NCBI GenBank assembly: GCA_937924755.1
Contig: CALEVZ010000004.1
Span: 1-57,195, forward strand
DNA: 57,195 nucleotides
Direction of reading: 5' to 3'
Source: an uncultured bacterium
GTDB taxonomy: Bacteria; Acidobacteriota; Thermoanaerobaculia; Thermoanaerobaculales; Thermoanaerobaculaceae
The notes beneath the pieces are model-generated. The model made no database searches. It was not told the origin of the DNA and saw only the letters and a program-made list of their open reading frames with translations. Both the position numbers and the translations under genes were made by a program. This document shows positions 17,192 through 44,433 of the stretch, piece by piece (within the stretch, counting starts at the first letter, position 1; every line of letters starts with the position of its first letter).

Positions 17192-17518
17192 ATGATCAAA
17201 ATCACTGAGCGGGCGGTGGAGAAGGTGCGCTACTACGCCGGAACCATGCCCGAGGCGGAGGGGAAGGAGCTGCGCATTTTCGTGCAAGGGGGAGGGTGCT
17301 CCGGCTTTCAGTACGGCTTCACCTTCGACGATCACCAGGAGGGTGACACGGTGGTGGAGGCCGGAGGGGTCAAGGTGCTGGTTGACCCCATGTCGCTGCC
17401 GTACTTGACCGGCGCCAAGGTGGACTTCGTCGAGGACATGCGCGGTTCCGGCTTTGTCGTCGACAACCCCAACGCCTCGCGCTCCTGCGGCTGCGGGCAC
17501 TCCTTCTCGGTGGATTGA
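17192..17518 (+). CDS. erpA: A-type iron-sulfur carrier protein (ErpA/IscA/HesB family)
   Basis: A 108-residue A-type carrier that transfers [2Fe-2S]/[4Fe-4S] clusters to apo-enzymes. All three cluster Cys residues are present: Cys36 in [11 protein letters not shown], and Cys99 and Cys101 in [12 protein letters not shown]. The [10 protein letters not shown] wording and short C-terminus resemble ErpA more than SufA. The ATG at 17192 is nine bases from GGGAGG; a GTG at 17186 is too close. It directly precedes def. Confidence 0.92.
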
Positions 17519-17519
17519 G

Positions 17520-18086
17520 GTGGCCATCTTTTCCGCCCTGGACGGCCGGCGGCGCCCGCTGGTGCGCATGGGGCACCCGGTGCTGCGGCAGCGCGCCGAG
17601 GAGGTGCCGCCGAGTCGTTTCGGCACCCGGGCGCTGCGGGATCTGGGGCGCGATCTGGTGCGCACCATGCACGAGGAAAACGGGGCGGGGCTGGCGGCGC
17701 CGCAAGTTGCGGCGCCGCTGCGCGTCTTCGCCTACCAGGTGCCCGCAGAAAAGGGCCAGAGCACCGTTCCACCCACGGTGCTGGTCAACCCCGTGTTGAC
17801 TCTGGAAGGGGAGGCCAGCGAGCTGGGGTGGGAGGGGTGCCTGTCCATCCCGGGGTTGCGGGGCTTGGTCCCCCGCCACCCCCGTCTGGTGGTGCGGGCC
17901 TTCGACGTGGAGGGCGCACCGGTGGAGTTCGCCGCCGAGGGTTTCCACGCCCGCGTCATCCAGCACGAGTTCGACCACCTGGATGGGGTGCTCTTTCTCG
18001 ACCGCATGCGGGACATGCGGGCGCTGTACTACGAGGACGAATGGGAGGAGTTCGCTCTCAAGAAGGATCTACCCATCGAAGAGTGA
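17520..18086 (+). CDS. def: Peptide deformylase
   Basis: A 188-residue metalloenzyme that removes the formyl group from new N-terminal methionines. Motif 1 is GAGLAAPQ (55-62), motif 2 EGCLS (105-109, metal Cys107), and motif 3 QHEFDHLDG (His149, His153). The GTG at 17520 gives MAIFSALDGRRRP before the conserved VRMGHPVLRQRAE. It begins just after the carrier stop. An internal ATG at 17568 would still keep the core. No methionyl-tRNA formyltransferase gene is next to it, unlike many genomes. Confidence 0.95.
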   Translation: MAIFSALDGRRRPLVRMGHPVLRQRAEEVPPSRFGTRALRDLGRDLVRTMHEENGAGLAAPQVAAPLRVFAYQVPAEKGQSTVPPTVLVNPVLTLEGEASELGWEGCLSIPGLRGLVPRHPRLVVRAFDVEGAPVEFAAEGFHARVIQHEFDHLDGVLFLDRMRDMRALYYEDEWEEFALKKDLPIEE

Positions 18087-18104: not shown

Positions 18105-19403
18105 TCAGGCCCCCCTGGCCGATGCCGTGATGGTCTCCAACCCGTGGCCGTGGGGGCCGGTTTCGCGGCGGCGCAACAGCACGGCGAACAGCAGGGCGAG
18201 AAATCCGAACAGGGAGAAGATCCACATCCCGGGGGCGTAGCCCGCGGGGTTGGCAGCGCTGGCGGCGAAGGTGTCGTTGGTGCGACCGATGAGCCAGTTC
18301 ATCCCCGCCACCCCGACCTGCTGGACTAGGGTCATCAGCGCGTAGGCGGTGCCCAGGCGCCTCTCCTCCACCACATAGGCCACCGCCGGCCACATCACCG
18401 CGGGAATGAGCGAGAACGCCACCCCCATCATGGCCACCGGAACGCCCAAAGGGAGCAGCTGATAGGCCATTAGGAGATAGACGGGCATCAGCAACAGGGC
18501 GCCGAACATCATGAACAGCGAACGCTTGCCCAGCTTGTCCACCAGTAGTCCGAATAGCGGAGTGGCCACCATGGCGGAGAGGGGCAGAACGCTGTTGTAG
18601 CGGCCGGCCGCCTCGCGGGTGAGCTCGAAGGCCTCGATGAAGAACTTGATGGCGAAGGAGCGGAAAGGGAAGATGGCGGAGTAGAACGTCACGCACAATC
18701 CCACCACCAGCCAGAACGACAGGTTGAAGCGGAACACATCGGCCAGCACCAGGCGGTCGGTGGCGCCGGCGCGCCCCAGCCCCCAGCGGCGGCGGGCGTG
18801 CCCCTCCAGCATGCCGTAGACGAGCGGCGCGACCAGGCACAGAGCGCTGATGGCAGCGGCGATGACCAGCGGCCCCTGCCAATCCTTGTACGCAAAGCGG
18901 GCCCAGGTGGGCGACCAATCGGCCGACACCGAGCCCAGGCGGGCGACCGTCAGGTTGATCCCGAAGGCGAACGACAGCTCCTTGCCTTTGAACCATTTGG
19001 CGAGGGCGGTGGTGATCGCCACGATGAGCGGCTCGGAGCCCAGCCCCAGCAGGAAGCGGGCCACCAGCATGACGTGAAACGACTCGGTGGCGGCGTTGAG
19101 GCCGGCGGCGACCACGCAAATGGCGCCGAAGAGAATGGTAGATCGGACGGTGCCGAAGCGATCGACGATGATGCCGCCCAGCAGCAAGACGATGACCGCC
19201 GCAATGCTGTAGGCGGTGTACAGGGCGCCGATGTTCTCGTCGGAAAAGGCCAGGGATGACTTGAGCAGATCGGCGATCGGGGCGATGGAGTCGTAAACGT
19301 AGTAGTTGCCGTACATGGCCAGGGAAATGACGACCAGGACGAGCCAGCGGTACCCCCGGGGCGGCTCGACGGGCGAGGTGACGGCGGACGGGAGCGTGGT
19401 CAT
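18105..19403 (-). CDS. MFS transporter resembling MFSD1 dipeptide carriers
   Basis: A 432-residue major facilitator with 12 predicted membrane helices. The first half looks, from memory of the family, like animal MFSD1, a lysosomal dipeptide uniporter: RFLLGLGSEPLIVA (115-128), then KWFKGKELSFAFGINL (136-151) and TVARLGS (152-158). This segment has Glu124, Lys residues 136-141 and Arg155 at places matching conserved charged residues of that protein. No MFS drug-efflux motif is striking. The ATG at 19403 overlaps the stop of the upstream exported S9 peptidase by four bases, so the two are translationally coupled. This suggests uptake of peptides released by that peptidase; the substrate is an inference. 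Confidence 0.75.
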   Translation of the reverse strand: MTTLPSAVTSPVEPPRGYRWLVLVVISLAMYGNYYVYDSIAPIADLLKSSLAFSDENIGALYTAYSIAAVIVLLLGGIIVDRFGTVRSTILFGAICVVAAGLNAATESFHVMLVARFLLGLGSEPLIVAITTALAKWFKGKELSFAFGINLTVARLGSVSADWSPTWARFAYKDWQGPLVIAAAISALCLVAPLVYGMLEGHARRRWGLGRAGATDRLVLADVFRFNLSFWLVVGLCVTFYSAIFPFRSFAIKFFIEAFELTREAAGRYNSVLPLSAMVATPLFGLLVDKLGKRSLFMMFGALLLMPVYLLMAYQLLPLGVPVAMMGVAFSLIPAVMWPAVAYVVEERRLGTAYALMTLVQQVGVAGMNWLIGRTNDTFAASAANPAGYAPGMWIFSLFGFLALLFAVLLRRRETGPHGHGLETITASARGA

Positions 19404-22120
19404 GGCGTGGTCTCCGAGGGCCGGATGGTAGCAGAGGGCGGCGGGCCGGCGACCACCAGGCGAATCCCCACCAGCTGCGGGGGTGGGGCGGTGGGCGGGG
19501 CGGACGCGGCGGGCCGGTCGGCGCTGGGTCCGCGGGCCAGAGCGCTGCCGTCGGCGGCGACCACCCACTCGGCGACGTTGCCGTCCAGGTCGAAGACCGG
19601 ATCGTCGCCGCAGCCGGGGAGGCTGCCCACCGGCAGCAGCAGAGCCTCTGGCCCGAGCTCGGCGAGAGGCTGGGCCAGGCGGGCGGCGTCGTCGGGGTTG
19701 ACCTCGTACCCCGCCCAGCGGTCCAGGGTGTTGCCTCCCGAACCACAGGCGAGCCTGCCGGCCTCCTCCTCTGTGGGCAGGCGGAAGGGTCGGCCGGTGC
19801 GCGCCGCCAGCCAAGCGGCGAACTCCCTGGCCCGCGCAAAGGTGCTAACCACCGGCAGGTTGTCCCCGCCCGGCGGCACCACCACGGCGGGATCGAAGGC
19901 GGCGAATTGGGAGCGGGTGATTTCGAAGCGGGACACCTCGATGCCCCGGTGCACCACTGTTTCGGGCACCAGGGTGTCCCCCGCGCGGTGGCCGAAGGCG
20001 GCGCCGTCCCGGGCGGCCCGGGCACGCTGCACCAGTGCCTGCAGGAGCGAACCCGGCTTGAGAGCGGGGTTGGGCGCCTCCCAGGTGCCGAAGAGGTGGC
20101 GGTCCAGCCACGCCAGCTCCTCCTCTACCTTGCGCCGCTGGTGGGGAATGGCGCCCAGCCCGTGGGGTTCCCCCGGGAACAGTACCAGACGGACCTCTGT
20201 CTTGCCAATTTGTTGCAGCGCCCGGAACAGCGACCACGACTGGTGCGGCGGGACGTTGCGATCCTCCGTGCCGGTGAACACGATGGTGGGGGTGGTGACC
20301 CTCTTTAGTCGGAAAAAGGGGGATTTCTCCAGATACACGTGGGGGATTTCCCAGGGCGGGCCACCGAAGTAGTAGTTGTCGAAGGCCGCCCCGAAATCCA
20401 CGTTGGCCCAGTCGGAGAACCACTCCACGTCGGCGGCGCCGATGCTGGCGGCGCGGAAGCGGTCGCTTGAAGTGATGAGCTCGGCAGAGAGAATGCCGCC
20501 GTTGGACCACCCCACCGCGGCCAGGCGCCGGGGGTCCACCAGCCCGGCGGCGATCACCGCGTCGACGCCCTTTTGCAGGTCGGGGATCTCCAGCTCGTAG
20601 TACTTGCCGCCGCCGATGGACTCCACCCAGTCCAGCCCGTAGCCGGCCGAGCCGTGGTAGTTCACCTGTAGCACGAAGGCGCCCCGCTGCCGCCACAGCA
20701 GCACCGGCGACGCCCAGTTGAAGGACCAGTGGTCCAGGTCGGTGCCAGCGGGTCCCCCATGGATGTCCAGGATCAGGGGGAAGCGAGTGCCCTCCTGATA
20801 GTCGAGCGGGTAGTGGAGGATCGCCTCCACCTCCTCGTCGCGGGCACCTGGGTAGCGCAGGACCTCCACCCGGCCGGTGGGCTTGCCTGCCCAGCCGGGA
20901 TTCAGGGCGGTGAGGGGGCGGGGGTTGCTGCAGCGGGCGCCCTCCAGGGTGGCCGCGTACCACTGGGGCGGGGTGGTGGAGGTGGAGTATTGGTAGGCCA
21001 CGGTCCGTCCATCGCGGCTGGCGACCAGGGTTTCCATCCCCCGGGTGTGCTCTCCACTGAGTTCCTGGCGCTGCCACCCGGCGGGGGTGCGGCGAAAGTG
21101 GGCGGGGCGGAAGCGCACCCCATCGGCCAGCAGCGCGATGATGCCCCCTTGTACCGGCGCAATCCCGCCTCCCAGACCGCGCTCCCAGCTGCCGTCTACC
21201 CGTTCCGTTCGACCGTGGGTCAGGTCGTGGTACCAGAGCTGCTGGACCGAGGCGCTGCGGTAGCGGGGGTGGCGACTGTAGCGGTTGACGAGGTAGAAGC
21301 CGCGGGAGTCGGGGCTCCAGGCGATCGACTCCGGCACGAGGGGGGTGTCGGCCAGCAGGCGCGCCGCCTTGCCGGTGGTGAGGTCGACCAGAAAGGTGTG
21401 CGGGGGTGTACGTTCATCAAACTGATAGGAGAGACTCTGCTGGGCCCGCACCACCGCGTGGCAGCCGTCCGGCGCCACCGCCAGCAGGTCGATCCAGTCG
21501 CGGTTGGAGGTCAGGGGGGTCGCCGTGCCGTCCTCCAGCTTGACGCGGAAGAGCCGCACCGGCGGCTCGTGCTCGGCGTCCTCCACGACGACGGAGGTGT
21601 CCCTGCGCTCCTTGAGGTCGCGCTCCCGCCAGGTGGGCGCCTCCTGGGCAGCCACCACCAACGTGGCGGGGTCAATCCAGCCGAAGGCCCGCACCGGCCG
21701 CTCCAGCCGAGTCACCGGAAAGGGCTCCCCCCCGGCGACGCCCATCGCCCACACCTGGCCCCTGGCCACCTTGTCGTCCTTCACCCCCGGCCGCGGGCGG
21801 GTAAAGAGAAAGGCCACCGACGATCCATCCGGTGAAAAACTCGGGGATGAGACCGAATCCGTGCCGCGGGTGAGCTGCACGGCGCTGCCATCGGCCAAGC
21901 GAGTCAACCAGAGGTGATTGACCCGCTTCTGCTCCCCCTCGGGGGTCTCCGCCACCACGCTCCGGGTCCAGGCGGCGAGGCTGCCGTCGGGGGAGAGGCT
22001 CCAGGCGGTGACCCGTTCGGCCAGCAGCAGGTCATCCACCGACCACGGGGGCGGCGTGGCGTGGCCGACCCAGGCCGAGAACATCATCAGGACCAGGGGA
22101 CACAGAGCAGGGCGCATCAA
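19400..22120 (-). CDS. Exported S9 prolyl-oligopeptidase-family peptidase fused to an FGE-sulfatase-like domain
   Basis: A 906-residue protein. Residues 1-20 are a signal peptide (LCPLVLMMFSAWVGHA). About 25-420 is a beta-propeller with WD40/TolB-like repeats (SLSPDGSLAAW, SFSPDGSSVAF, AWSPDSRGFYL). About 430-680 is the alpha/beta-hydrolase of family S9: Ser539 in AVGWSNGGILSAE, Asp620 in FTGTEDRNVPP, His653 in PGEPHGLG. These relatives are dipeptidyl- or acylaminoacyl-peptidases. Unusually, about 725-890 resembles the formylglycine-generating-enzyme fold (VSRFEITRSQFAAF, FRLPTEEEAGRL, FDLDGNVAEWVV, GIRLVV). It seems shortened and lacks an obvious Cys pair, so it may be a binding module. It overlaps the MFS gene by four bases. 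Confidence 0.85.
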   Translation of the reverse strand: MMRPALCPLVLMMFSAWVGHATPPPWSVDDLLLAERVTAWSLSPDGSLAAWTRSVVAETPEGEQKRVNHLWLTRLADGSAVQLTRGTDSVSSPSFSPDGSSVAFLFTRPRPGVKDDKVARGQVWAMGVAGGEPFPVTRLERPVRAFGWIDPATLVVAAQEAPTWRERDLKERRDTSVVVEDAEHEPPVRLFRVKLEDGTATPLTSNRDWIDLLAVAPDGCHAVVRAQQSLSYQFDERTPPHTFLVDLTTGKAARLLADTPLVPESIAWSPDSRGFYLVNRYSRHPRYRSASVQQLWYHDLTHGRTERVDGSWERGLGGGIAPVQGGIIALLADGVRFRPAHFRRTPAGWQRQELSGEHTRGMETLVASRDGRTVAYQYSTSTTPPQWYAATLEGARCSNPRPLTALNPGWAGKPTGRVEVLRYPGARDEEVEAILHYPLDYQEGTRFPLILDIHGGPAGTDLDHWSFNWASPVLLWRQRGAFVLQVNYHGSAGYGLDWVESIGGGKYYELEIPDLQKGVDAVIAAGLVDPRRLAAVGWSNGGILSAELITSSDRFRAASIGAADVEWFSDWANVDFGAAFDNYYFGGPPWEIPHVYLEKSPFFRLKRVTTPTIVFTGTEDRNVPPHQSWSLFRALQQIGKTEVRLVLFPGEPHGLGAIPHQRRKVEEELAWLDRHLFGTWEAPNPALKPGSLLQALVQRARAARDGAAFGHRAGDTLVPETVVHRGIEVSRFEITRSQFAAFDPAVVVPPGGDNLPVVSTFARAREFAAWLAARTGRPFRLPTEEEAGRLACGSGGNTLDRWAGYEVNPDDAARLAQPLAELGPEALLLPVGSLPGCGDDPVFDLDGNVAEWVVAADGSALARGPSADRPAASAPPTAPPPQLVGIRLVVAGPPPSATIRPSETTP

Positions 22121-22232
22121 GACCTCCTCGCCCGCGGCGGACTGCGGTGAGCGGACGCCGGGCGCTGGTCGAGGTTAGCAGGCTCGCGATTGGCACGCGG
22201 GGGGGCGAACCGGGCCGTTGGGGAGCCGTGGC

Positions 22233-24827
22233 TTACCGCCCGAACAGCCGTCGCCGTTTGACCTCGTAGGGTTTGTTGGCGGTGCCGAAGCTGGAGGAGT
22301 GGCCCGACGTATCGGTGGCGACGATGTACAGCTCCACCACCCCGGCGTTGCCGTGCACGGCCGGCGACAGCTCCAGCACGTACTCATCGCCACCGAGGTG
22401 TTTGAGCTGGACCTCGCGGTACTGCTTGCGCTCGTCGGTGCGCACGTAGGCCTTGGCGCTGGCCACGCGGTAGTCATCGGTGATGCGCATCGGGACGGTG
22501 AGGGTTTCATCTTTCTTGAACCTGGGATCGAAGCCCGGGGCGATGGCAATGACCGGCGCCTGGGCGTCCAGCTCGGCCAGCCGAGCCTGCAGACGATCCC
22601 GGGCCTCGGCAAAGGCGGAGGCCAGGTGTGGGGGTGGTACCAGCGAACCCAGCTGCGCCAGGCCGGCCTCGGGGTTGCCCCGCTCCAACGCCTGGGCGGC
22701 ATCGGCGAGCACCCGGCGCGCCTGCTCGTCGATGGCCCGCTCGTGCCGGGCGCGGGCCAGGCGCTCGGCGACACCGGGGGCCTCGGGCCAGGCGTTGGTG
22801 ACCAGCTCCAGCCGCTGAATGGCGCGGTCCCAGCGGCGCGCCTGCAGGAGCCCATCGGCCTCGGCCAGGAGGGCGCGGGCCGCCTCCTCCCGCAGCTCGA
22901 AGGCCCGTTGATAGGCCGGCAAGATGACCGTCATCTCGGCGCTGCGCTGCAACAGCTCCAGGTGATCACCGGCGCGCTGCGCCCGCGTCATCTGCCCGGA
23001 AACCTTCAATGCCTCGTTGGCCTTGGCCAGTTGCTCCCGCAGCCCGGGCACGGCGGCCTGCTCGCGGGCGGTCATGCCGGCCAGGGCATCCACCGCCGCC
23101 CGCAGGGTGCGCAAGTTGCCGCTGCGCAGGCCCTGCGCCAGGTCGGCGATGGCCCGCTCGCGACTCATTCCCTCCAGCTCGGCGGCGATGCTGCGGGCCA
23201 GGGCGGCATCGGCGGGGGAGAGGGCCGCCAGGCGCTGGGGGGAGATCTCGCCGAGGATGCGGCGCGCCGCCTCAAAATCCCCATCCTCCATGGCGTCGCG
23301 CGCCGCCAGCAGCTGGGGATCGCGATCCGGTGCCGCCGAAGCGGCGGGAGTGGGGACCGGGGTGGCCGGGACGGGGGTGGGCACGACAATGGGCGGCACC
23401 GGGTCGGTATCGAGGAGGGTGACGGCGACGATGCCGGCTCCCAACAGCAGCAGGAGAGCTGCGGCCGCCAGGAGGGGGATTTTCCAGCGCGAGGGCGAGC
23501 TGGGCGGGGCGGCGGGGGCCGCCGCTGGCGGCGGGGCGGGCCCAGGTTCGGCTGCTTTGCCGGCCGTGGCGGCGGGGAGGGGCCCACCGGAGGCCGGTGG
23601 CGGCGGAGGCGGCGAGGCCGCCAACCGGGGCGAGGCCGGCTCGGGAGGCGTCGGGGCGGGCGGCGGTGGCAGCCCCGCCTGCGGTTGAAGCTCTTCCACC
23701 TCGGCTGGCTCCTGCGCGGCCAACGGCTCGCCGGGGGGGGCGGGAACCACCGGGATGACCAGGGCGGGGTCGGTTTTGTTGGGGTCGAAGGGTGGCCGCG
23801 GAGGGGACTCGGGCAAGGACTCTGGGGTGGCCGCAGGAGCGGGAGTGGGCTCCCGGCGCGCCGGCTCCGCAGCGTCGCGCATCCCCACCTTGACCTTGAG
23901 CTGGGGGCGGCTGGGCCCCGGCCTGGCGGCGGGTGCCGCCGGGGCGGGTTGGCGAATGGTGGCCTCGACCTCACCCACCTCTTCCTTGCCCGTTTCCCCA
24001 CGGACGGGGCGCGGCGTCACCTCCGGGGCGAGGCGCGATAGCAGCAGGCGCCGCAACTCCGCAAAGGTGGTGGTGCGAGCCTGGGGATCGCGCCGCAGGG
24101 CCACCGACAGATGCTCCTGCAGGGTGGCGCCGTGGCGCAGTTCGATGATGGGCAACCTCACCCGCGGCGCCGACGAGCCCAGCCCCACCACGTCGGCGTG
24201 CAGGAGCTCGCAGGCGAGCAGGGCGAAGGAGTAGAGATCGGCCCGCCAGGCGAGGGAGTGGGTGAGGGCCCGGGGCACCAGCAGTTCGGCAGCGGCGAAA
24301 CGTTCGGCTTCGGGGGAGCGGCCCAGGGGTGCCTCACCGCCGTCCGCGGCGAGGTACGCCACCGTGCCGAGTCCCAGCAGCTGCACCGTCTCCCCGCCGG
24401 GTGATTCCACCACCAGGACGTTTTCAGGGCAGAGGTTGTGGTGCACCAGCCCGTTATCGGCCAAAACCTCGAGCGCCCGCGCCAGATCGGCGAGGATGGG
24501 GACAATCCGCTCCACCGGTGCGGTGGTGAATTTGGTTAGGGGCGTACCCTCGACGAAGGAAGTGACCAGGAAGGCCCCGTCATCGGGGGTGAACCCGTAA
24601 TCGAGAACCTCCGGCATGGCAGCCAGCTGCAACTCGGCGAGGCGACGCATGAAGGTGATGAAGCGTTCCCGCTGCCCCTGGCTGACTCCGGCAGCGAGGG
24701 GCTTAAGGATCTTGACGGCGACGATCTGGCCACTGCCCGGATCGATCGCCCGCCGCACCGTGGACAGCGGCGAGGCGCTCAAGACTTCCTCCAGACGGTA
24801 TGCGGCGGCTACATCGCGAACGTCCAT
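22233..24827 (-). CDS. Membrane pseudokinase (Ser/Thr kinase-like) with extracytoplasmic domain
   Basis: An 864-residue, one-helix protein. Residues 1-265 follow the Hanks-type kinase layout, but the catalytic parts are degraded. The Gly-rich loop has no glycines (EVLSASPLSTVRRA). Lys39 is kept in VAVKIL. HRDLKPEN reads HHNLCPEN (129-136; catalytic Asp replaced by Asn131). DFG reads GLG (152-154). A Pro/Ala-rich linker covers about 285-447, a membrane helix 451-472, an alpha-helical TPR-like region about 490-760, and a C-terminal beta domain about 765-864 (PVIAIAPGFDPRFKKDETLT). It probably acts as a scaffold or sensor. The start has GAGGA upstream. It lies behind the S9/MFS pair on the same strand, 112 bp away. 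Confidence 0.85.
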   Translation of the reverse strand: MDVRDVAAAYRLEEVLSASPLSTVRRAIDPGSGQIVAVKILKPLAAGVSQGQRERFITFMRRLAELQLAAMPEVLDYGFTPDDGAFLVTSFVEGTPLTKFTTAPVERIVPILADLARALEVLADNGLVHHNLCPENVLVVESPGGETVQLLGLGTVAYLAADGGEAPLGRSPEAERFAAAELLVPRALTHSLAWRADLYSFALLACELLHADVVGLGSSAPRVRLPIIELRHGATLQEHLSVALRRDPQARTTTFAELRRLLLSRLAPEVTPRPVRGETGKEEVGEVEATIRQPAPAAPAARPGPSRPQLKVKVGMRDAAEPARREPTPAPAATPESLPESPPRPPFDPNKTDPALVIPVVPAPPGEPLAAQEPAEVEELQPQAGLPPPPAPTPPEPASPRLAASPPPPPPASGGPLPAATAGKAAEPGPAPPPAAAPAAPPSSPSRWKIPLLAAAALLLLLGAGIVAVTLLDTDPVPPIVVPTPVPATPVPTPAASAAPDRDPQLLAARDAMEDGDFEAARRILGEISPQRLAALSPADAALARSIAAELEGMSRERAIADLAQGLRSGNLRTLRAAVDALAGMTAREQAAVPGLREQLAKANEALKVSGQMTRAQRAGDHLELLQRSAEMTVILPAYQRAFELREEAARALLAEADGLLQARRWDRAIQRLELVTNAWPEAPGVAERLARARHERAIDEQARRVLADAAQALERGNPEAGLAQLGSLVPPPHLASAFAEARDRLQARLAELDAQAPVIAIAPGFDPRFKKDETLTVPMRITDDYRVASAKAYVRTDERKQYREVQLKHLGGDEYVLELSPAVHGNAGVVELYIVATDTSGHSSSFGTANKPYEVKRRRLFGR

Positions 24828-34612: not shown

Positions 34613-37600
34613 GTGACGGCCCAACCCCTCCTGCATCTGGTGACGGCGGCCTGCCTGCTGATGGCCGCCGCGATGGCGGCTGGCGCTGCCCGCAGGAACA
34701 CCCCCGCCACCCCATGGTGGGCGGCAGCCATCGTCCTGGCGGCGCTCGGCCTGCTGCGGGCGCTCCTCGCCGATCGGCCTCTGGGGGGAGCGGTGGAACT
34801 CACGCTGGCCGCCGGGCTCCTGGTCTGCTTCGCCGCCCTGCGTGCCACGACCGGGAGGGTACGCGACCTGAACAGCTACGCCGCCGCGTTGAGCGAAGAT
34901 CTGGAGCGCAGTGAGCAGCGCTACAGGTTTCTCCTCAACGGCCTGCCAGAGGCGTTCGTGGTGCTGGAGGAAGAGACCATCTTCTTTGCCAACCGTGGGT
35001 TCGCCAAGATCTTCGGAGTGGGGTCGAAGGCGGCCCGGGGGCGACGTCTGGAGGAGTTCATCGCCCCGGAGTGGCGGGCTGCCTTTCGGGGTCGCCACAG
35101 CCTGGAGTCGACAACTCCTGTTGTTGGCATGCGTCGGCTGGAACTCGAGGTTGAAGGTGAAAATGGCAGGAAAATGTGGGCGGAGATGCGACTGGCCACC
35201 TCGGATTTCGAGGAGCGGCCGACGGAGGTGGTGCTGATCGCGGATATCAGCGAGCGGCGCCGGGCGGAGCATCGGCTGCAACGCATCACCGAGACGATGC
35301 TGGAACTCGGTGACGACTACAACGCCAACGTGCGCAAGCTCACCGACCTATGCGGGGAACTGATGAGCGCCACATCCGCCATGTACAACCGCCTACGGGG
35401 CGAGATGCTCTGCACCCTGGCGGGCTGGCAGCTGCCGCCCGACTACCCGGCCGCCGACCGTGCGCAAGGACACCTTTGCTATGACCTGATCCGCGCCCGT
35501 CACGGCGAGGGGCCGCTGGTGGTCGGGGCCTTGAGTCAAACCCCCTACGCCGACAGCGACCCCAACGTCCGCCGCTACGGCCTGTCCACCTACGCGGGCT
35601 TCCCGGTCGTCAACCGGGGGCGGACGGTGGGCTCGCTGTGCGTGGTGTACCAGCAGGCGGTGAACCCGACGCCGGGGGACCTGCGCGTGTTGCAGGCCCT
35701 GGCTTCGGCCCTGGGGATCGAAGAGGAGCGGCAACACGGACGAGCGCTCCAGCAAGCGGCGCAGGAGATCGCCGAGGCCACGCAGCATGTCGGCACTTTA
35801 CCGGCGCTGTGCGGGGTGGTGCACGAGATTGTCGGACGGTTTTTCGACGCTCCGGGCTTTATTCTGGCGATCTACAACCGCGCTGCCCAGCTCCTCTCGT
35901 TTCCCTATGTCGCTGGGGCACAGAGAGTTCCTGAGCCTCGGCCGCTCGCGAGCGGCCTGTTCGACGAGGCGCTGCGCTCCGGGCGGGTGGTCGTCGTCTC
36001 GCCCGAGGCGGGATCCGCGCCCGGGGGAGCCTGGGAAGGGGTAGACGAGCTGGGATGGGCCGGCGGTGTGCTGGTACCCCTGGAGGACCGCCAAGGACCG
36101 TTTGCCGTCATGGGGGTGGGCAGTGATCGTCGAGAGCTGGTCTACTCGGAATGGGAAAGGGAGGTGCTGGAAGCCCTCTCGAGCCAGGTCGCGCGGGCGG
36201 TGGAATACCTCCTGTCGGAGGAGCAGCTGCGGCAATCCGAAGTGAAGTACCGCACCCTGGTCAACCGCATGCAGGATGGGGTGTTTTTGCTCCAGGGCTC
36301 GCGCCTGGTGTTCTGCAACGAGGCGCTCGCTGGCATGCTGGGATACTCACCCGCCGAGCTGGAGGGCAGGGAGTTTCTCGCGTTGATAGATCCGGAGGAT
36401 CGGGAGCTGGTGGCTAAACGCCACCGCCGACGACTGGCGGGTGAAGAAGTGCCGGAGGAGTACGAGTTCCGCCTGCGACACGCCGACGGGCGGCGGGTGG
36501 AGGTGCTGTTGCGGGTGGGTTTGGTCGAATACCAGGGGCGAATCGCCACGCTGGGAACGTTGCGGGACCTCACCGAGCGCCGGCGCCTGGAGGCGCAACT
36601 GCGACAGGCGCAGCGGATCGAAGCGCTGGGGCAGCTGGCGGGCGGCGTGGCGCACGACTTCAACAACCTGCTCATGGCCATCCACGGCTCGGCGCAACTT
36701 TTGCAGCAACGTCTGGGAGGGAAGCCACGGGAGGAGCTCGCCATCATCCTTTCCGCCAGCCGGCGTGCTGCCCAGCTGACCCGCGGGCTCCTGGCCTTTG
36801 CCCAGCGGCAGGTGCTGCAGCCCCAGCCGCTGGATCTCAACCGCCATATCCAGCAGATGCTGCCCATCCTTCGCCGGGTGATCCCAGAGAGTATCGTTAT
36901 CGACTACCTCCCCTGGGCATCGCCACTGGTGGTGGAGGTGGATACGGGACAGCTGGATCAGATTCTGATGAACCTGGTGGTTAACAGTCGTGACGCCATG
37001 GAAAACGGTGGTCGTATTCTCATCCGTACCGCTGCCGTGGAGATCGGCGCCGACTACAAGGCATCCCACCCCTGGGCCAAGCTGGGAAGCTGCGCCCACC
37101 TGCAGGTGTGCGACACCGGCGTCGGCATGGACGCCCACACCCTCGCCCACGCCTTCGAGCCGTTCTTCACCACCAAGGAGCCGGGGCGGGGCACCGGCTT
37201 GGGGCTGTCCACCGTCTACGGGATCGTCAAGCAGCACGGCGGTATGATCGACCTCGCCAGCGAACCCGGCGGCGGCACCACCGTGGACGTGTACCTCCCC
37301 ATCGTCGACAGGCTGCCGCAGGAGGAGACGCCGGGGCTCGAGGGCCAGGCAGAGGGGGGCCGGGAGCGCATCCTGGTGGTGGAGGACGAGGAGGAGGTGC
37401 GCCAGATCCTGCGGGAGGCCCTGCGGGAGGTTGGGTACGAGGTATGGGAAGCGGGGGACGGTGCCGCCGCCCTGGACGTGCTGCTCTCCGCTGGCGAGGA
37501 GTTCGCGCTGGTGATTTCCGACGTGGTCATGCCGCGCCTGGGAGGCAGGGAGCTGCTGGAGGCGGCGCGCTCCCTCGGTTTCACGATGCCGTTTCTCTAC

Positions 37601-37750
37601 TCCTCGGGCTACGGGGAGCCGTTCGTCGACCACGGTCACCACGGCGGGGGGTCCGGGGAGCGCGTCGCCTTCATCGCCAAGCCCTACGGGATCGAAGAGC
37701 TGCTCCGCAAGGTGCGGGAGGTTCTCGCTGCTCGCCCTGCTTCGGCGTGA
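34613..37750 (+). CDS. Hybrid sensor histidine kinase with PAS, GAF and receiver domains
   Basis: A 1045-residue hybrid kinase. Two hydrophobic helices lie at the N-terminus (about 1-80), followed by a PAS (about 107-220), a GAF-like domain (about 225-375), a second GAF (about 380-560), and another PAS (about 560-680). The HisKA His681 is in GGVAHDFNNLL. The ATPase domain has the N-box NLVVNSRDAME, DTGVGM, and GRGTGLGLSTVYGIVKQHGG (read in parts). The receiver has its phospho-acceptor Asp970 in LVISDVVMPRLGG, with Lys in IAKPYG. It would autophosphorylate on a cellular signal and pass the phosphate to its own receiver; no output regulator is adjacent. The GTG start has a weak ribosome site. 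Confidence 0.93.
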   Translation: MTAQPLLHLVTAACLLMAAAMAAGAARRNTPATPWWAAAIVLAALGLLRALLADRPLGGAVELTLAAGLLVCFAALRATTGRVRDLNSYAAALSEDLERSEQRYRFLLNGLPEAFVVLEEETIFFANRGFAKIFGVGSKAARGRRLEEFIAPEWRAAFRGRHSLESTTPVVGMRRLELEVEGENGRKMWAEMRLATSDFEERPTEVVLIADISERRRAEHRLQRITETMLELGDDYNANVRKLTDLCGELMSATSAMYNRLRGEMLCTLAGWQLPPDYPAADRAQGHLCYDLIRARHGEGPLVVGALSQTPYADSDPNVRRYGLSTYAGFPVVNRGRTVGSLCVVYQQAVNPTPGDLRVLQALASALGIEEERQHGRALQQAAQEIAEATQHVGTLPALCGVVHEIVGRFFDAPGFILAIYNRAAQLLSFPYVAGAQRVPEPRPLASGLFDEALRSGRVVVVSPEAGSAPGGAWEGVDELGWAGGVLVPLEDRQGPFAVMGVGSDRRELVYSEWEREVLEALSSQVARAVEYLLSEEQLRQSEVKYRTLVNRMQDGVFLLQGSRLVFCNEALAGMLGYSPAELEGREFLALIDPEDRELVAKRHRRRLAGEEVPEEYEFRLRHADGRRVEVLLRVGLVEYQGRIATLGTLRDLTERRRLEAQLRQAQRIEALGQLAGGVAHDFNNLLMAIHGSAQLLQQRLGGKPREELAIILSASRRAAQLTRGLLAFAQRQVLQPQPLDLNRHIQQMLPILRRVIPESIVIDYLPWASPLVVEVDTGQLDQILMNLVVNSRDAMENGGRILIRTAAVEIGADYKASHPWAKLGSCAHLQVCDTGVGMDAHTLAHAFEPFFTTKEPGRGTGLGLSTVYGIVKQHGGMIDLASEPGGGTTVDVYLPIVDRLPQEETPGLEGQAEGGRERILVVEDEEEVRQILREALREVGYEVWEAGDGAAALDVLLSAGEEFALVISDVVMPRLGGRELLEAARSLGFTMPFLYSSGYGEPFVDHGHHGGGSGERVAFIAKPYGIEELLRKVREVLAARPASA

Positions 37751-38805: not shown

Positions 38806-40185
38806 ATGAAGGTGTTCTTTCAAACAGGCTGGGCGAGGCCCGCAGCGGCGGCACTGCTCGTGGCGGTGGCGGTGCCCAGGGCCGCCCCGGGGGTTGAGCT
38901 GGATCTCGCCGGAGCGGTGCAGCTGGCGCTGGAGCGCAACCAGGCGCTGCAGGCTGTGCGCGAGCGCCAGGTGGAGGTGGCCGGTGCCGTTGCCCAGGCG
39001 CGCGCCGACGCCTATCCGCAGATCTCCGCCTACGCCGCCTGGAACCAGTCTCGCAACCCGGCGTTCCTCAACAGCCGGGACTTCGAGGACATCATCTCGC
39101 AGTTCCCGGGAGCCTCCCTGACCCCGCGCAGCCAGGGCCTGTCCTCGGCCGGGGTGAGGGTTTCCCAGCCGCTGCTGACTTTTGGCAAGATCCCGGCGGC
39201 CATTGACCTGGCCCGCCTAGCCGGGAGGGTCACCGAGGCGCAGATCGAGGTCGCCCGCCTGGACACCGCGCTGGCGGCGGCGGAGGCGTACTACGGCCTG
39301 CTGGCGGCGCGGGAGCAGGTGCGGGCGCTGGAGCTGGAGCAGCGGGCGCGCGAGGAGGCACTGGCGGTGGTGCAGGCGCGCTACGACATCGGGGATGCCA
39401 CCCACCTGGAGCTTTTGCAGGCGCAAGCTGCCCTTGCCGAGGTGGGGCCAATCGTGGCCACGGCGCGGGGCGGCGCCGAGGTGGCGGAGATCCGCCTGTG
39501 GGCGGTACTAGGAGTGCACCCGGACGAGGAGCTGGACATCCGCTCCTTGGTCGCCGATCCCCCGCCGCCCCCGGACCGCGCCCTGCTGGCCCGGGCGGGG
39601 TGGCAGCGACGCCCGGAGCTGAAGGCGCTGGTCCTGGAGCGGGAGGCGAGACGGCGGCAAGAAACTGTGATCACCGCCGATGGCAAGCCGAGGGTGGACT
39701 TCTCCGGCCACTGGGGGAGACAGGTCCGCCTGATCGAAAATATCGACGATCCGCGCTTCGATGATTGGTTGATCGCCGTCGAAGTGTCGTGGTCGCTTTT
39801 CGACGGCGGACGGCGGCGCGGCCAGCAAGCGCAGGTGCGCTCGATCCAGCGGCAGCTGGAGCTGCAACTGGCGGACACCGACCTGCGCGTGCTGTTGGAG
39901 GTGGAACAGGCGGTCACCGGCTATCAAACCGCGCTGGCGCGCCTCGCCGCCGCCCGTCAGGCGCGCGCCGCTGCCCAGGAGGCGCGGCGCGTGGCCAGCG
40001 AAACCTACCAGCTGGGCGCAGCCATCTTCGCCGACGTCCTGGACGCCCAGCGCCGCGAGGTGCAGGCCGAGGTGGATGCCGTGGCGTCCTTCTTCAACAC
40101 CTGGATCGCCGCGGCGCGGCTGGCGCGGGCGGTGGGCCGCCTGCCCCACGAGGTGCTGGGCCCTTCCGGCTGGCTCCTGGAGTGA
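38806..40185 (+). CDS. TolC-family outer membrane efflux protein
   Basis: A 459-residue outer-membrane channel of the TolC family with a signal peptide (ALLVAVAVPRAAPG). The mature part has two repeated long-helix segments of outer membrane efflux type. The first holds LDLAGAVQLALERNQALQAV and ARADAYPQISAYAAW. The second holds RPELKALVLEREARR and ARRVASETYQLGAAIFADVLDAQR (read in parts). It forms the exit duct for the RND pump encoded downstream. The ATG at 38806 has AGGTGAT upstream. It is followed after three bases by the adaptor, and together they form a complete tripartite system. Confidence 0.9.
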   Translation: MKVFFQTGWARPAAAALLVAVAVPRAAPGVELDLAGAVQLALERNQALQAVRERQVEVAGAVAQARADAYPQISAYAAWNQSRNPAFLNSRDFEDIISQFPGASLTPRSQGLSSAGVRVSQPLLTFGKIPAAIDLARLAGRVTEAQIEVARLDTALAAAEAYYGLLAAREQVRALELEQRAREEALAVVQARYDIGDATHLELLQAQAALAEVGPIVATARGGAEVAEIRLWAVLGVHPDEELDIRSLVADPPPPPDRALLARAGWQRRPELKALVLEREARRRQETVITADGKPRVDFSGHWGRQVRLIENIDDPRFDDWLIAVEVSWSLFDGGRRRGQQAQVRSIQRQLELQLADTDLRVLLEVEQAVTGYQTALARLAAARQARAAAQEARRVASETYQLGAAIFADVLDAQRREVQAEVDAVASFFNTWIAAARLARAVGRLPHEVLGPSGWLLE

Positions 40186-40188
40186 TGC

Positions 40189-41289
40189 ATGACACCATTC
40201 GATGACCACCGCAACGGCCAAGCGCACGACCGCCGCCGCACCTCCACGCGTTCTAACAAACCCTGGCGGTGGCTTGCCGCGGGCGGCACCCTGGCCGTCC
40301 TCGCCGGCTGTGGCGGCGGCTCGCCGGCGCCGCCGGCAGCCGTCGAAAGGTCTGCCACCGTCAAGGTCCTGCACCTCCAGGCCCGGCAGGCGGTGGACAT
40401 GGCGCGACTGCCGGCGGACGTCCTCCCCAACCGGCGCACCGTGCTGGCGGCGGAGGTGGGCGGCGTGGTGGAGCGCCTGACGGTGACCGAAGGGTCGAGG
40501 GTACGCGAGGGGGAAACTCTGGTCAGCATCGACACCCGCGCCCTGCAGCAGGCGCTGGCCGAGGCCGAGGCCATCTACCGGCGCGCCCAGGCCGATTTCG
40601 AGCGGGCCGAGCAGCTGGCCGAGCGCCGCTCCATCACCCGCCAGCAGCTCATCGATGCCCGCGCCGCCCACGATGTGGCCCTGGCCCGCCTGGAGAGCGC
40701 CCGCCTGCAGCTCTCCAAGTCCCAGGTGAAGGCCCCTTGGGACGGCACGGTGGCGGTCAAGCGCGTGGAGGTGGGGGACTTTGCCGTGCCCGGTCAACCG
40801 CTGCTGGAGCTGGTGGACACCGCGCGCCTGAAGGTGCGCGCCTTCGCCCCCGCCGCGGATGTGCCTTACCTCAAGGAGGGTGCCCCGGCCCGGGTGGTCC
40901 TGGAGGGAATTCAGGGAGAGGTGGGGGCCGACGGGTGGGTGACGCGGCTGGGGGTGGAGCTGGACCCGGAGGCTCGCACCCTCGCCCTGGAGGTGGAGCT
41001 GGCCAACCCCGGCGGCTCCTGGCGGCCCGGCATGCTGGCACGCATCGAATTACCCCGGCGGGTCCTCGATCAGGCGATCCTGGTGCCGCTGTCGGCCGTC
41101 ATCGATTACGAGAAGGAAAAGGTCATTTATCTCGTCGAGGAGGGACGGGCGCGCCGGCAAGTGGTGGAGCTGGGCCCGGTGATCGGCGAGGAGGTGGTGA
41201 TCAGCAAGGGTGTGTCCCCGGGGGCGGTGGTGATCGTGGAGGGTCACCAGCAGGTATCGGACGGCCAGCGCGTGGTCGAGGCGGGCTAG
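40189..41289 (+). CDS. RND efflux periplasmic adaptor (membrane fusion protein), lipoprotein
   Basis: A 366-residue adaptor. After about 36 residues comes a lipobox VLAGC (acylated Cys about 41), so it is lipid-anchored. The biotinyl/lipoyl-like halves are TVLAAEVGGVVERLTV and VKAPWDGTVAVKRVEVGDFA. Between them lies a coiled-coil hairpin (about 120-175, LAEAEAIYRRAQADFERAEQ). The beta-barrel and membrane-proximal domains follow (RVVLEGIQGEVGA; VPLSAVIDYEKEKVIYLVEE). It bridges the RND pump and the TolC-type channel. The start is three bases after the tolC stop, consistent with coupled translation. Confidence 0.93.
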   Translation: MTPFDDHRNGQAHDRRRTSTRSNKPWRWLAAGGTLAVLAGCGGGSPAPPAAVERSATVKVLHLQARQAVDMARLPADVLPNRRTVLAAEVGGVVERLTVTEGSRVREGETLVSIDTRALQQALAEAEAIYRRAQADFERAEQLAERRSITRQQLIDARAAHDVALARLESARLQLSKSQVKAPWDGTVAVKRVEVGDFAVPGQPLLELVDTARLKVRAFAPAADVPYLKEGAPARVVLEGIQGEVGADGWVTRLGVELDPEARTLALEVELANPGGSWRPGMLARIELPRRVLDQAILVPLSAVIDYEKEKVIYLVEEGRARRQVVELGPVIGEEVVISKGVSPGAVVIVEGHQQVSDGQRVVEAG

Positions 41290-41298
41290 GGGCGGCCC

Positions 41299-44200
41299 AT
41301 GGGGATCACCAACTTCGCCCTCTCCCGGCGCAACGCTACGATCTTCTTCCTGATTGCCATCGTGGTGGCGGGGGCGAGCGCCTATCTCACCCTGCCACGG
41401 GAGGCGGCCCCCGACATCACCGTCCCGGTGATCATCGTGTCCACGGTTTACCCGGGCGCCTCCCCCACCGACATGGAAACTCTCGTCACCCGCCACCTGG
41501 AGCGGGAGCTGCAGGGAGTGGAGGGGCTCAAGCGCCTCACCTCCACCTCCCAGGAGAGCGTCTCCGTGGTTACCGTTGAGTTCGTCTCCGGCACCGATAT
41601 CGACGCCGCGCTGCAGAAGGTGCGAGACCGGGTGGACCGTGCCAAGGTGGACTTCCCCCGCGACGCCGAGGAGCCGGCGCTGCAGGAGATCAACTTTTCC
41701 GACTTCCCCATCGTCCAGGTCAACCTCTCCGGCGCCGTGGGCCCGGCGGTGCTGAAACAGCTGGCGGAAAACCTCAAGGACCGCCTGGAGGGGCTGCCGG
41801 GGGTGCTGCGCGTCACCCTGGTGGGTGGGCTCGACCGCGAGGTCAAGGTGGAGGTGGATCCCCAGCGCCTGCGCCTGTACCGCCTGGCCTTCCAGGATGT
41901 GGTGGACGCGGTGGCCAACGAGCACCTGTCGATACCGTCTGGGGAGCTCAAGGTCGGCAGCCAGTCGCTGTCGGTGCGCGTGCCGGGGGAGGTGAAGGAG
42001 CCGCGAGAGATCGCCGACTTCGTCATCCGCGCCACCGGCGGCCGGCCCGTGTTCGTGCGCGACGTGGCCACGGTGAGCTTCGGCTTTGCCGATCGCACGT
42101 CGTTCGCCCGCATCAACGGCCAGGAGTCGGTGGCGCTGGCGGTGCAGAAGCGCCTGGGCGCCAACATCATCACCGTGGCCGACGCGGTCAAGCGGGCGGT
42201 GGAGGAGGAACGAGCCGGCTGGCCCACCGGCGTGCAGGCCACCATCCTGGGGGACCAGAGCAAGGACATTCGCACCATGGTCGTGGACCTGGAAAACAAC
42301 ATCCTCTCCGGGTTGCTGCTGGTGGTGCTGGTGCTGATGTTCGCCCTGGGGCTGCGAAACGCCGTGCTGGTGGGACTGGCCATCCCCATATCCATGCTGC
42401 TGACGTTTTTTCTCCTGCAAATCCTCGGCATCACCCTCAACATGATCGTGCTGTTCTCGCTGGTGCTGGCGGTGGGGATGCTGGTGGACAACGCCATCGT
42501 CATCATCGAGAACATCTACCGCCACACCCAGGAGGGTAAGCCGCGCCTGCAAGCCGCCGGGGAGGCGGTGCGCGAGGTGGGGGTGGCGGTGTTGGTCTCC
42601 ACCCTCACCACCGTGGGAGCGTTCTTCCCGCTGCTCTTCTGGCCCGGGGTCACCGGTGACTTTATGTACTACCTGCCGGTCACCGTGTCCATCGTGCTGC
42701 TGGCCTCCATGGTGGTGGCCTTCACCATCAACCCGGTGCTGGCCTCCTTCTTCATCAGCGCCGGCCGCCCAGCGGCCAGCGACGAAGGGGTCGGGGTCAA
42801 CGAAAAACTCCTGGGACCGCGGCTGCTCACCGCCTACCGGGGGGTGCTGGCCGCCGCCCTCGACCACCGAGCCCTGACGCTGGCCACTGTGGCCGGCCTC
42901 TTCGTGGCGGTGGTGGCCCTCTTTGCCGCCTTCAACCATGGCGTCGAATTCTTCCCCGAGACCGAACCCCGGCAGATCTTCGTAGACGTGGAGATGCCCC
43001 CCGGCACGCGGCTGGAGAGCACCAACGCGGTGGCCGAGGAGATGGAGCGACGCCTGGCGGGACTGGCCGACGTCAACGTCGTCGCCGTCGGCGTCGGAGA
43101 GGGGTCGCAAGCCGATTTCGGCGTCGCGGGCGGGGGTGACGCCACCAGGGCGAGGGTTTCCATCGACCTGCGGGACCGCAGGGAGCGCACCGAGAATTCG
43201 TTCCTCACCCTCGCCGAGGTGCGCCGGCGCACCAGCGGCATTCCCGGGGCTACCATCGATGTGGACCGCCCCAACGAGGGGCCGCCGGTGGGCCTGCCCC
43301 TGACCATCGAGATCTCCGGCGAGGACTTCCTCCAGCTGGGAGCCATCGCGGCGCGTATCCGGCAGGCGATCGTGGACATCCCGGGGCTGGTATCGCTGGA
43401 CGACGACTTCGACCTGGCGCGACCCGAGATCAACGTGCGGGTGGATCGCGTGCGGGCCGCCCGCCTGGGGCTGACCACCCGCGACATCGGTAACACCCTG
43501 CGCACCGCCCTGCAGGGACAGGAGGCGGCCATTTACCGCTACGGCGATGAGGACGCCAAGATCCGCGTTCGTCTGGCGGAGGGGTCTCGCCAGCGCCTGG
43601 AGGATCTGGAGCAGCTCACGGTGGTGGCCGAGGGCGGTATCCATGTACCCCTGTCGGCGGTGGCCATCCTGGAGCAGGGCGCGGCGCTGCCCGCCATCCG
43701 GCACAAGGCGGCGCGCCGGATGGTCACCGTCTCGGGCCGGGTGACCTCCCCGGAGCTGGCGGAGCCGGTGCGGCGGGAGGCCCGCCGGCGGCTGCAGGCC
43801 ATCCCTGGCCTGCTGCCCCCCGGTGTCACCCTCGCCTTCGCCGGCCAGTCGGAGGAGGAGGACGAGGCCAAGGCGTTCCTCTCCCAGGCCTTCTTTTTCG
43901 CCTTCCTCATTGTCCTCTTGCTGATCATTGGCACCTTCGACTCCTTCGTGGTCCCCTTGATCGTCATGACCTCGGTGTTCATGTCCATGGTCGGAGTGCT
44001 GGTGGGGCTGGTGGTGACCGGGCAGCCCTTCGGCATCATCATGACCGGCCTGGGCGTCATTTCCCTGGCGGGGATCGTGGTGAACAACGCCATCGTCCTG
44101 CTCTCCTACGGCGAGCAGCTCGCGGCGCAGGGGTTGCCCCGCCGGGAGGTGGTGATGCTCACTGGCCTGCGCCGCCTGCGCCCCGTCACCCTCACCGCTA

Positions 44201-44433
44201 TCACCACCATCCTCGGGCTGATCCCCCTCACCACCGGGGTGGAAATCGATTTCCGCACCTTCTCCCTGGCCACCGGCGGCGAGTCCAGTCAGTGGTGGCG
44301 AGGCATGGGGGTGGCGGTGATCTTCGGACTTGGCTTCGCCACCGTGGTCACCCTGGTGGTGGTGCCGGTGCTCTATGACTTGTTGCTACAGGCGCGGGAA
44401 CGTCGCGCCCGCCGGGCGGCTGCCGCGTCCTGA
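41299..44433 (+). CDS. RND-superfamily efflux pump (AcrB/MexB-like)
   Basis: A 1044-residue inner-membrane pump, about the usual 1030-1050. It has 12 predicted helices with two large periplasmic loops. Typical features are the N-terminal FALSRRNATIFFLIAI, IVSTVYPGASPTDMETLVT, and the proton-relay TM4 region (LVLAVGMLVDNAIVIIENIYRH, read in parts), with the Asp of the DNAIV motif. The second half has GVEFFPETEPRQIFVDVEMP, and the end is LLQARERRARRAA. The family uses proton motive force to extrude drugs or metals. Substrate cannot be told from sequence. It is the last gene of the tripartite operon, nine bases after the adaptor. Confidence 0.95.
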   Translation: MGITNFALSRRNATIFFLIAIVVAGASAYLTLPREAAPDITVPVIIVSTVYPGASPTDMETLVTRHLERELQGVEGLKRLTSTSQESVSVVTVEFVSGTDIDAALQKVRDRVDRAKVDFPRDAEEPALQEINFSDFPIVQVNLSGAVGPAVLKQLAENLKDRLEGLPGVLRVTLVGGLDREVKVEVDPQRLRLYRLAFQDVVDAVANEHLSIPSGELKVGSQSLSVRVPGEVKEPREIADFVIRATGGRPVFVRDVATVSFGFADRTSFARINGQESVALAVQKRLGANIITVADAVKRAVEEERAGWPTGVQATILGDQSKDIRTMVVDLENNILSGLLLVVLVLMFALGLRNAVLVGLAIPISMLLTFFLLQILGITLNMIVLFSLVLAVGMLVDNAIVIIENIYRHTQEGKPRLQAAGEAVREVGVAVLVSTLTTVGAFFPLLFWPGVTGDFMYYLPVTVSIVLLASMVVAFTINPVLASFFISAGRPAASDEGVGVNEKLLGPRLLTAYRGVLAAALDHRALTLATVAGLFVAVVALFAAFNHGVEFFPETEPRQIFVDVEMPPGTRLESTNAVAEEMERRLAGLADVNVVAVGVGEGSQADFGVAGGGDATRARVSIDLRDRRERTENSFLTLAEVRRRTSGIPGATIDVDRPNEGPPVGLPLTIEISGEDFLQLGAIAARIRQAIVDIPGLVSLDDDFDLARPEINVRVDRVRAARLGLTTRDIGNTLRTALQGQEAAIYRYGDEDAKIRVRLAEGSRQRLEDLEQLTVVAEGGIHVPLSAVAILEQGAALPAIRHKAARRMVTVSGRVTSPELAEPVRREARRRLQAIPGLLPPGVTLAFAGQSEEEDEAKAFLSQAFFFAFLIVLLLIIGTFDSFVVPLIVMTSVFMSMVGVLVGLVVTGQPFGIIMTGLGVISLAGIVVNNAIVLLSYGEQLAAQGLPRREVVMLTGLRRLRPVTLTAITTILGLIPLTTGVEIDFRTFSLATGGESSQWWRGMGVAVIFGLGFATVVTLVVVPVLYDLLLQARERRARRAAAAS

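Follow-up and report, generated by a model that had tools for sequence, protein, structure and literature searches.

An MFSD1-family carrier of an uncultured Thermoanaerobaculaceae bacterium and its probable role in dipeptide import

The window analysed here is a stretch of 57,195 nucleotides from an uncultured bacterium of the family Thermoanaerobaculaceae, phylum Acidobacteriota (assembly GCA_937924755.1, contig CALEVZ010000004.1). It encodes an MFS transporter, hereafter the carrier, which on the evidence of its sequence is a member of the MFSD1 family and probably imports dipeptides from the periplasm into the cytosol. The carrier belongs to a bacterial branch of a known family and is not a new kind of system. 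MFSD1, a mammalian lysosomal dipeptide uniporter, was an orphan until 2024, and literature searches of open-licence papers found it reported from animals only, with no bacterial homologue described. The bacterial branch combines an unchanged dipeptide clamp with operon-like links to PepD and to S46 and M29 peptidases. Its value is that a substrate can be predicted for hundreds of genes named just 'MFS transporter', including those of gut Bacteroides and Parabacteroides. The bacterial homologues can serve for structural work and mutagenesis, and it becomes possible to test how lysosomal dipeptide export arose in evolution.

Family membership and the dipeptide site

The carrier gene and the codons of three site residues lie at the following positions of the window.

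18105..19403, (-) strand: MFSD1-family MFS transporter, 432 amino acids, 12 predicted transmembrane (TM) helices; PF07690
19290..19292, (-) strand: Asp38 codon (MFSD1 Asp60), TM1; invariant in 105 homologues
19032..19034, (-) strand: Glu124 codon (MFSD1 Glu150, clamp of the dipeptide N-terminus), TM4; E in 104 of 105 homologues, X in the remaining one
18939..18941, (-) strand: Arg155 codon (MFSD1 Arg181, clamp of the dipeptide C-terminus), TM5; R in 105 of 105 homologues

The carrier is grouped with MFSD1 because single-sequence and profile searches, the residues of the site and the phylogenetic tree agree. A phmmer search of the solved structures matched the carrier to mouse MFSD1 (8r8q) with an E-value of 6.2e-50, the next MFS protein following at 0.13, which bears out the resemblance to MFSD1 noticed in a first-pass annotation of the sequence. 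The two proteins are identical at 118 of 372 aligned positions, a membrane-domain identity of ~32%. The profile built from 105 bacterial homologues scored MFSD1 at 273 bits among the solved structures; the second-ranked transporter was a glucose carrier with 41 bits. The AlphaFold2 model of the carrier (mean pLDDT 92.3) has MFSD1 8r8q as its top PDB match in Foldseek. In the Z-ranked VIA-align list other MFS structures are ahead, many of them inward-open, and MFSD1, whose reference structure 8r8q is outward-open, is not among the displayed rows. This absence is not counted against family membership, since the ranking seems to prefer structures that share one conformation, the inward-open one; taken by itself, the structural comparison does not decide the matter. 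The POT/PTR2 transporters, such as the Porphyromonas POT, share with the carrier the MFS fold and the proposed role, the import of dipeptides from periplasmic dipeptidyl-peptidases (PMC8048996), but they form a separate MFS family, and the carrier has the MFSD1-type clamp instead. Their Pfam family, PF00854, was not matched by the carrier up to E=0.1.

In a tree of 53 rows, in which mouse MFSD1 is the one eukaryotic sequence and has a long branch, MFSD1 falls inside the bacterial set, beside a second bacterial clade consisting of the homologues from loci L105, L106 and L108 (support 98/90). The group holding mouse MFSD1 and this clade also includes Bacteroides (100/99). The window carrier groups with Thermoanaerobaculales in the main clade of bacterial proteins, and is thus on another branch than those to which mouse MFSD1 is closest. 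The tree has no fixed root and gives no direction of transfer. Membership in another MFS family, an outcome considered in the first-pass annotation, is not borne out by this phylogeny, in which mouse MFSD1 stands among the bacterial members. The second MFSD1-like clade, L105, L106 and L108 (and L110 and L111), comes from the same class as the window and shows 36-39% identity to the window carrier.

According to cryo-EM and mutagenesis, MFSD1 holds the dipeptide between Glu150 and Arg181, and its site is lined or touched by Asp60, Tyr56, Tyr59, Tyr276, Phe280, Trp373, Gln393, Gln396, Asn397 and others (PMC11252000). In the sequence alignment, MFSD1 Tyr56, Tyr59, Asp60, Glu150, Arg181, Tyr276, Phe280, Trp373, and Gln396 correspond to Tyr34, Tyr37, Asp38, Glu124, Arg155, Tyr241, Phe245, Trp338, and Gln361 of the carrier, respectively. 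These nine residues are invariant or nearly so across the 105 bacterial homologues, and they are located in TM1, 4, 5, 7, 10 and 11 of the carrier model, the same helices as in MFSD1. The idea that Glu124 and Arg155 belong to the binding site is upheld by their alignment with the two MFSD1 clamps and by the matching helices of the model. The homologues from Bacteroides and Parabacteroides (30-32% identity) retain the Asp/Glu/Arg set, which is missing from the controls, two Legionella MFS proteins of weak similarity (~23%) and two other MFS proteins.

Neighbouring genes of the homologues and the proposed function

Genes were called around 97 homologue loci and analysed with Pfam, NCBIfam and tblastn; the counts refer to 80 loci and to neighbours on the same strand within 2.5 kb. 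The cytosolic nonspecific dipeptidase PepD lies upstream of the carrier at 20 of the 80 loci (TIGR01893, 601 bits in the one that was scanned), OPT oligopeptide transporters lie upstream at 23, and an M29-like aminopeptidase lies downstream at 29; at least one of these neighbours is present at 36 loci. PepD, which is mostly single-copy, adjoins the carrier in 19 of 38 genomes searched, against 0.03 expected by chance; these genomes were selected among Ignavibacteria-like and Bacteroidetes loci and, being related to one another, do not give 19 independent adjacencies. In two Acidobacteriota from the class of the window (L123 and L124), the gene immediately upstream of the carrier, on its strand, codes for an S46 dipeptidyl-peptidase (716-728 bits). 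Carriers of this clade thus adjoin dipeptide-pathway peptidases in other genomes. As the homologues stand beside dipeptide-cutting enzymes in many bacteria, the carrier is very probably a dipeptide importer. No peptidase was found among the scanned same-strand neighbours of L105, L106, L108, L110, L111 and their kin, which are nearer to mouse MFSD1 or further from the window carrier. An M13 peptidase gene lies near the homologue in L168, on the opposite strand.

We propose that the carrier is located in the bacterial inner membrane, where Glu124 would hold the N-terminus and Arg155 the C-terminus of the dipeptide, as Glu150 and Arg181 do in MFSD1. The dipeptides would be released in the periplasm by both S46 dipeptidyl-peptidases that the genome encodes (contigs C14 and C31), and perhaps also by the S9 peptidase encoded by the gene overlapping that of the carrier. 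The S46 enzymes DPP7 and DPP11 are periplasmic dipeptide producers as well; they are unrelated to the S9 enzyme, and the S46 genes of the window's own genome are on other contigs than the carrier. MFSD1 was measured as a uniporter, and the carrier may possibly be one too. In that case cytosolic hydrolysis, chiefly by the PepD encoded in the same genome (552 bits, contig C52), would keep up the gradient and pull net uptake. Import would have topologically the same direction as transport by MFSD1, from a digestive compartment into the cytosol. The Porphyromonas pathway from dipeptidyl-peptidase (DPP) through POT to dipeptidase (PMC8048996) has the same logic, with an MFSD1-type carrier here replacing POT or acting beside it.

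Several observations weigh against dipeptide import. Three further residues of MFSD1 are substituted in the carrier (Gln176 by Asn150, Gln393 by Thr358, and Asn157 by Thr131), and its selectivity may therefore differ from that of MFSD1; Tyr365 is likewise replaced, by Phe330. The own genome also contains two OPT genes and POT-like genes, which are possible peptide importers. MFSD1 works with the accessory protein GLMP, and no GLMP homologue (PF15065) was matched, in a search in which no control genome gave a match either. Most of the PepD, OPT and M29 neighbours come from Ignavibacteria-like lineages, and the three kinds are not mutually independent. In the closest relatives, from the Thermoanaerobaculales, the carrier is alone, with a divergent neighbour gene (a phosphoesterase where scanned, in L113) and no adjoining peptidase.

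A broader reading, which we put forward tentatively and hold to be possible rather than probable, is that eukaryotic MFSD1 branched off from a large family of bacterial dipeptide importers, whose members are linked to dipeptidases of the cytosol and dipeptidyl-peptidases of the periplasm. Lysosomal dipeptide salvage would then reuse a bacterial uptake route.

An exported protein of ~250 amino acids (L010:9654-10409) is also present in the Ignavibacteria loci L011, L012, L013, L014, L016, L020, L023, L052 and L072. Its gene sits between the carrier, or the PqqD-like neighbour of the carrier, and the M29-like aminopeptidase. The protein is beta-barrel-like by eye and had no Pfam match in L010 and L016, for which this was checked.

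The S9 peptidase and its link to the carrier

The gene upstream of the carrier encodes an exported S9 peptidase. Its features are listed below.

19400..22117, (-) strand: exported S9 peptidase with a C-terminal FGE-like domain, 905 amino acids counted from ATG 22117
19400..19403, (-) strand: ATGA overlap of the S9 stop and the MFS start (direct reading)
20093..20728, (-) strand: S9 catalytic alpha/beta-hydrolase domain (PF00326), triad Ser539/Asp620/His653
19556..19870, (-) strand: degenerate FGE-sulfatase domain (PF03781), kept in S9 orthologues
22123..22129, (-) strand: putative ribosome-binding site GAGGAGG of the S9 gene, 5 nucleotides ahead of ATG (direct reading)

The ATG of the MFS gene (19403-19401) and the TGA of the peptidase gene (19402-19400) overlap by 4 bases on the same strand, exactly as the first-pass annotation had read them. 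Translation of the peptidase probably starts at ATG 22117; the TTG at 22120, counted as the start of the open reading frame, is less likely used, since GAGGAGG is better spaced for the ATG. The sequence MRPALCPLVLMMFSAWVGHA was taken by eye to be a likely signal peptide. The protein also has a PD40 propeller repeat and an intact catalytic triad that is invariant in 20 aligned sequences. The C-terminal FGE domain, overlooked in the first-pass annotation, has no evident catalytic cysteine pair. The fusion of S9 and C-terminal FGE-like domains is conserved across about 20 genomes from the class (alignment A5). These full-length orthologues, with 40-62% identity, were found among 148 sampled genomes of the class, and several of the genomes that have one also have a relative of the carrier. 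The two genes are adjacent solely in the window's own genome.

The S9 profile scored best with a carboxypeptidase (8wt1, 265 bits), which is also rank 1 in Foldseek for the model of the enzyme, and gave 109 bits for dipeptidyl-peptidase IV. Together with the Geobacillus enzyme 8wt1, the S9 carboxypeptidases of Fusobacterium (7ep9) and Deinococcus (5yzm) have the same propeller and S9 domain and the intact triad, and they are the best profile and fold matches; the window enzyme differs in the added C-terminal FGE-like domain and the likely export signal. The enzyme thus falls among the S9 carboxypeptidases and the acylaminoacyl peptidases, and the earlier suggestion that it releases dipeptides finds no backing in this grouping, which does not include dipeptidyl-peptidase IV. 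Carboxypeptidase or acylaminoacyl specificity would be at least as likely as dipeptide release; given this carboxypeptidase-like similarity, release of dipeptides by S9 enzymes of such a layout is not established. Two specific identities were considered and rejected: S9B dipeptidyl-peptidase IV, as PF00930 (DPPIV_N) is not matched and carboxypeptidases rank first, and Dpp5, as NCBIfam NF053518 gave 97.9 bits with a cut-off of 900.

Alternative explanations and further genes of the window

The first-pass annotation had proposed a dedicated scavenging module, in which the S9 enzyme frees periplasmic dipeptides and the carrier imports them. The overlap of the two genes on one strand is in its favour, as is the occurrence of S9 enzymes downstream of the carrier in some Ignavibacteria and Bacteroidetes loci: L034, L036 and L046 encode PD40-type S9 peptidases further downstream, L051 has a different S9 enzyme as the immediate downstream neighbour, and in L033 a match was obtained by tblastn only. 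In Porphyromonas gingivalis, moreover, acylpeptidyl-oligopeptidase and DPPs cooperate in dipeptide uptake (PMC8048996). Such a module is nevertheless unlikely, with adjacency in 1 of 148 genomes of the class though about 20 have S9-FGE orthologues, and with S9 carboxypeptidases as the nearest solved relatives and a Dpp5 score below the cut-off. The S9 gene is therefore rejected as a conserved partner of the carrier, the pair being seen in its own genome only, and the S9 enzyme is best read as a lineage-specific partner. What stands of the proposed peptidase-carrier module is the general association, as dipeptide-pathway peptidases adjoin carriers of the clade elsewhere; the specific coupling to the S9 enzyme does not.

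A still less probable explanation is that the carrier has drifted to another small zwitterion, e.g. free amino acids, as reported for other members of TC 2.A.1.53. This group also holds Legionella amino-acid transporters (Pht), and the Legionella pair compared here is not established as Pht. The substitutions of Gln176 and Gln393 would fit such a drift. MFSD1 itself is filed under TCDB 2.A.1.53 (PMC9333335). The compared Legionella proteins, however, have no equivalents of Asp60, Glu150 and Arg181, which are invariant in the carrier homologues, and the neighbouring genes for PepD, OPT and dipeptidyl-peptidases favour dipeptides. It is very improbable that the carrier helps to export or process a modified peptide (RiPP-like). 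PqqD-like genes lie near carrier homologues in several lineages: tblastn gave 25 such places within 2.5 kb, and a PqqD-like gene also adjoins the homologue of Bacteroides finegoldii. In addition, the S9 enzyme shows a weak similarity to lasso isopeptidase (77 bits, cut-off 400). Yet neither a precursor gene nor a cyclase gene was recognised, and in the window no gene for PqqD was observed next to the carrier, while the cytosolic PepD and the M29-like aminopeptidase are catabolic. Import of dipeptides is thus the preferred reading for the carrier. A stand-alone PqqD-like protein is encoded directly downstream of the carrier in L141:6350-6700 (Bacteroides finegoldii) and in L012:9253-9600 (Ignavibacteria).

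The source genome (3.35 Mb, 97% complete, 86 contigs) contains a single clear copy of the carrier, whose nearest relatives are from Thermoanaerobaculales/Acidobacteriota. A peptide deformylase gene (17454-18086, (+) strand) is convergent with the MFS gene and close to its 3′ end. Scans of the locus for promoters and terminators gave chance level only. About 115 bases upstream of the S9 gene and co-directional with the S9-MFS pair is a gene for a kinase-domain protein with a proline-rich linker (22233-24827, (-) strand), which possibly forms one transcription unit with the pair. Elsewhere in the window, a hybrid histidine kinase with GAF and PAS domains and a receiver domain is encoded at 34613-37750 on the (+) strand, and an RND efflux operon for an outer-membrane factor, a membrane-fusion protein and an AcrB-type pump at 38806-44433 on the same strand.

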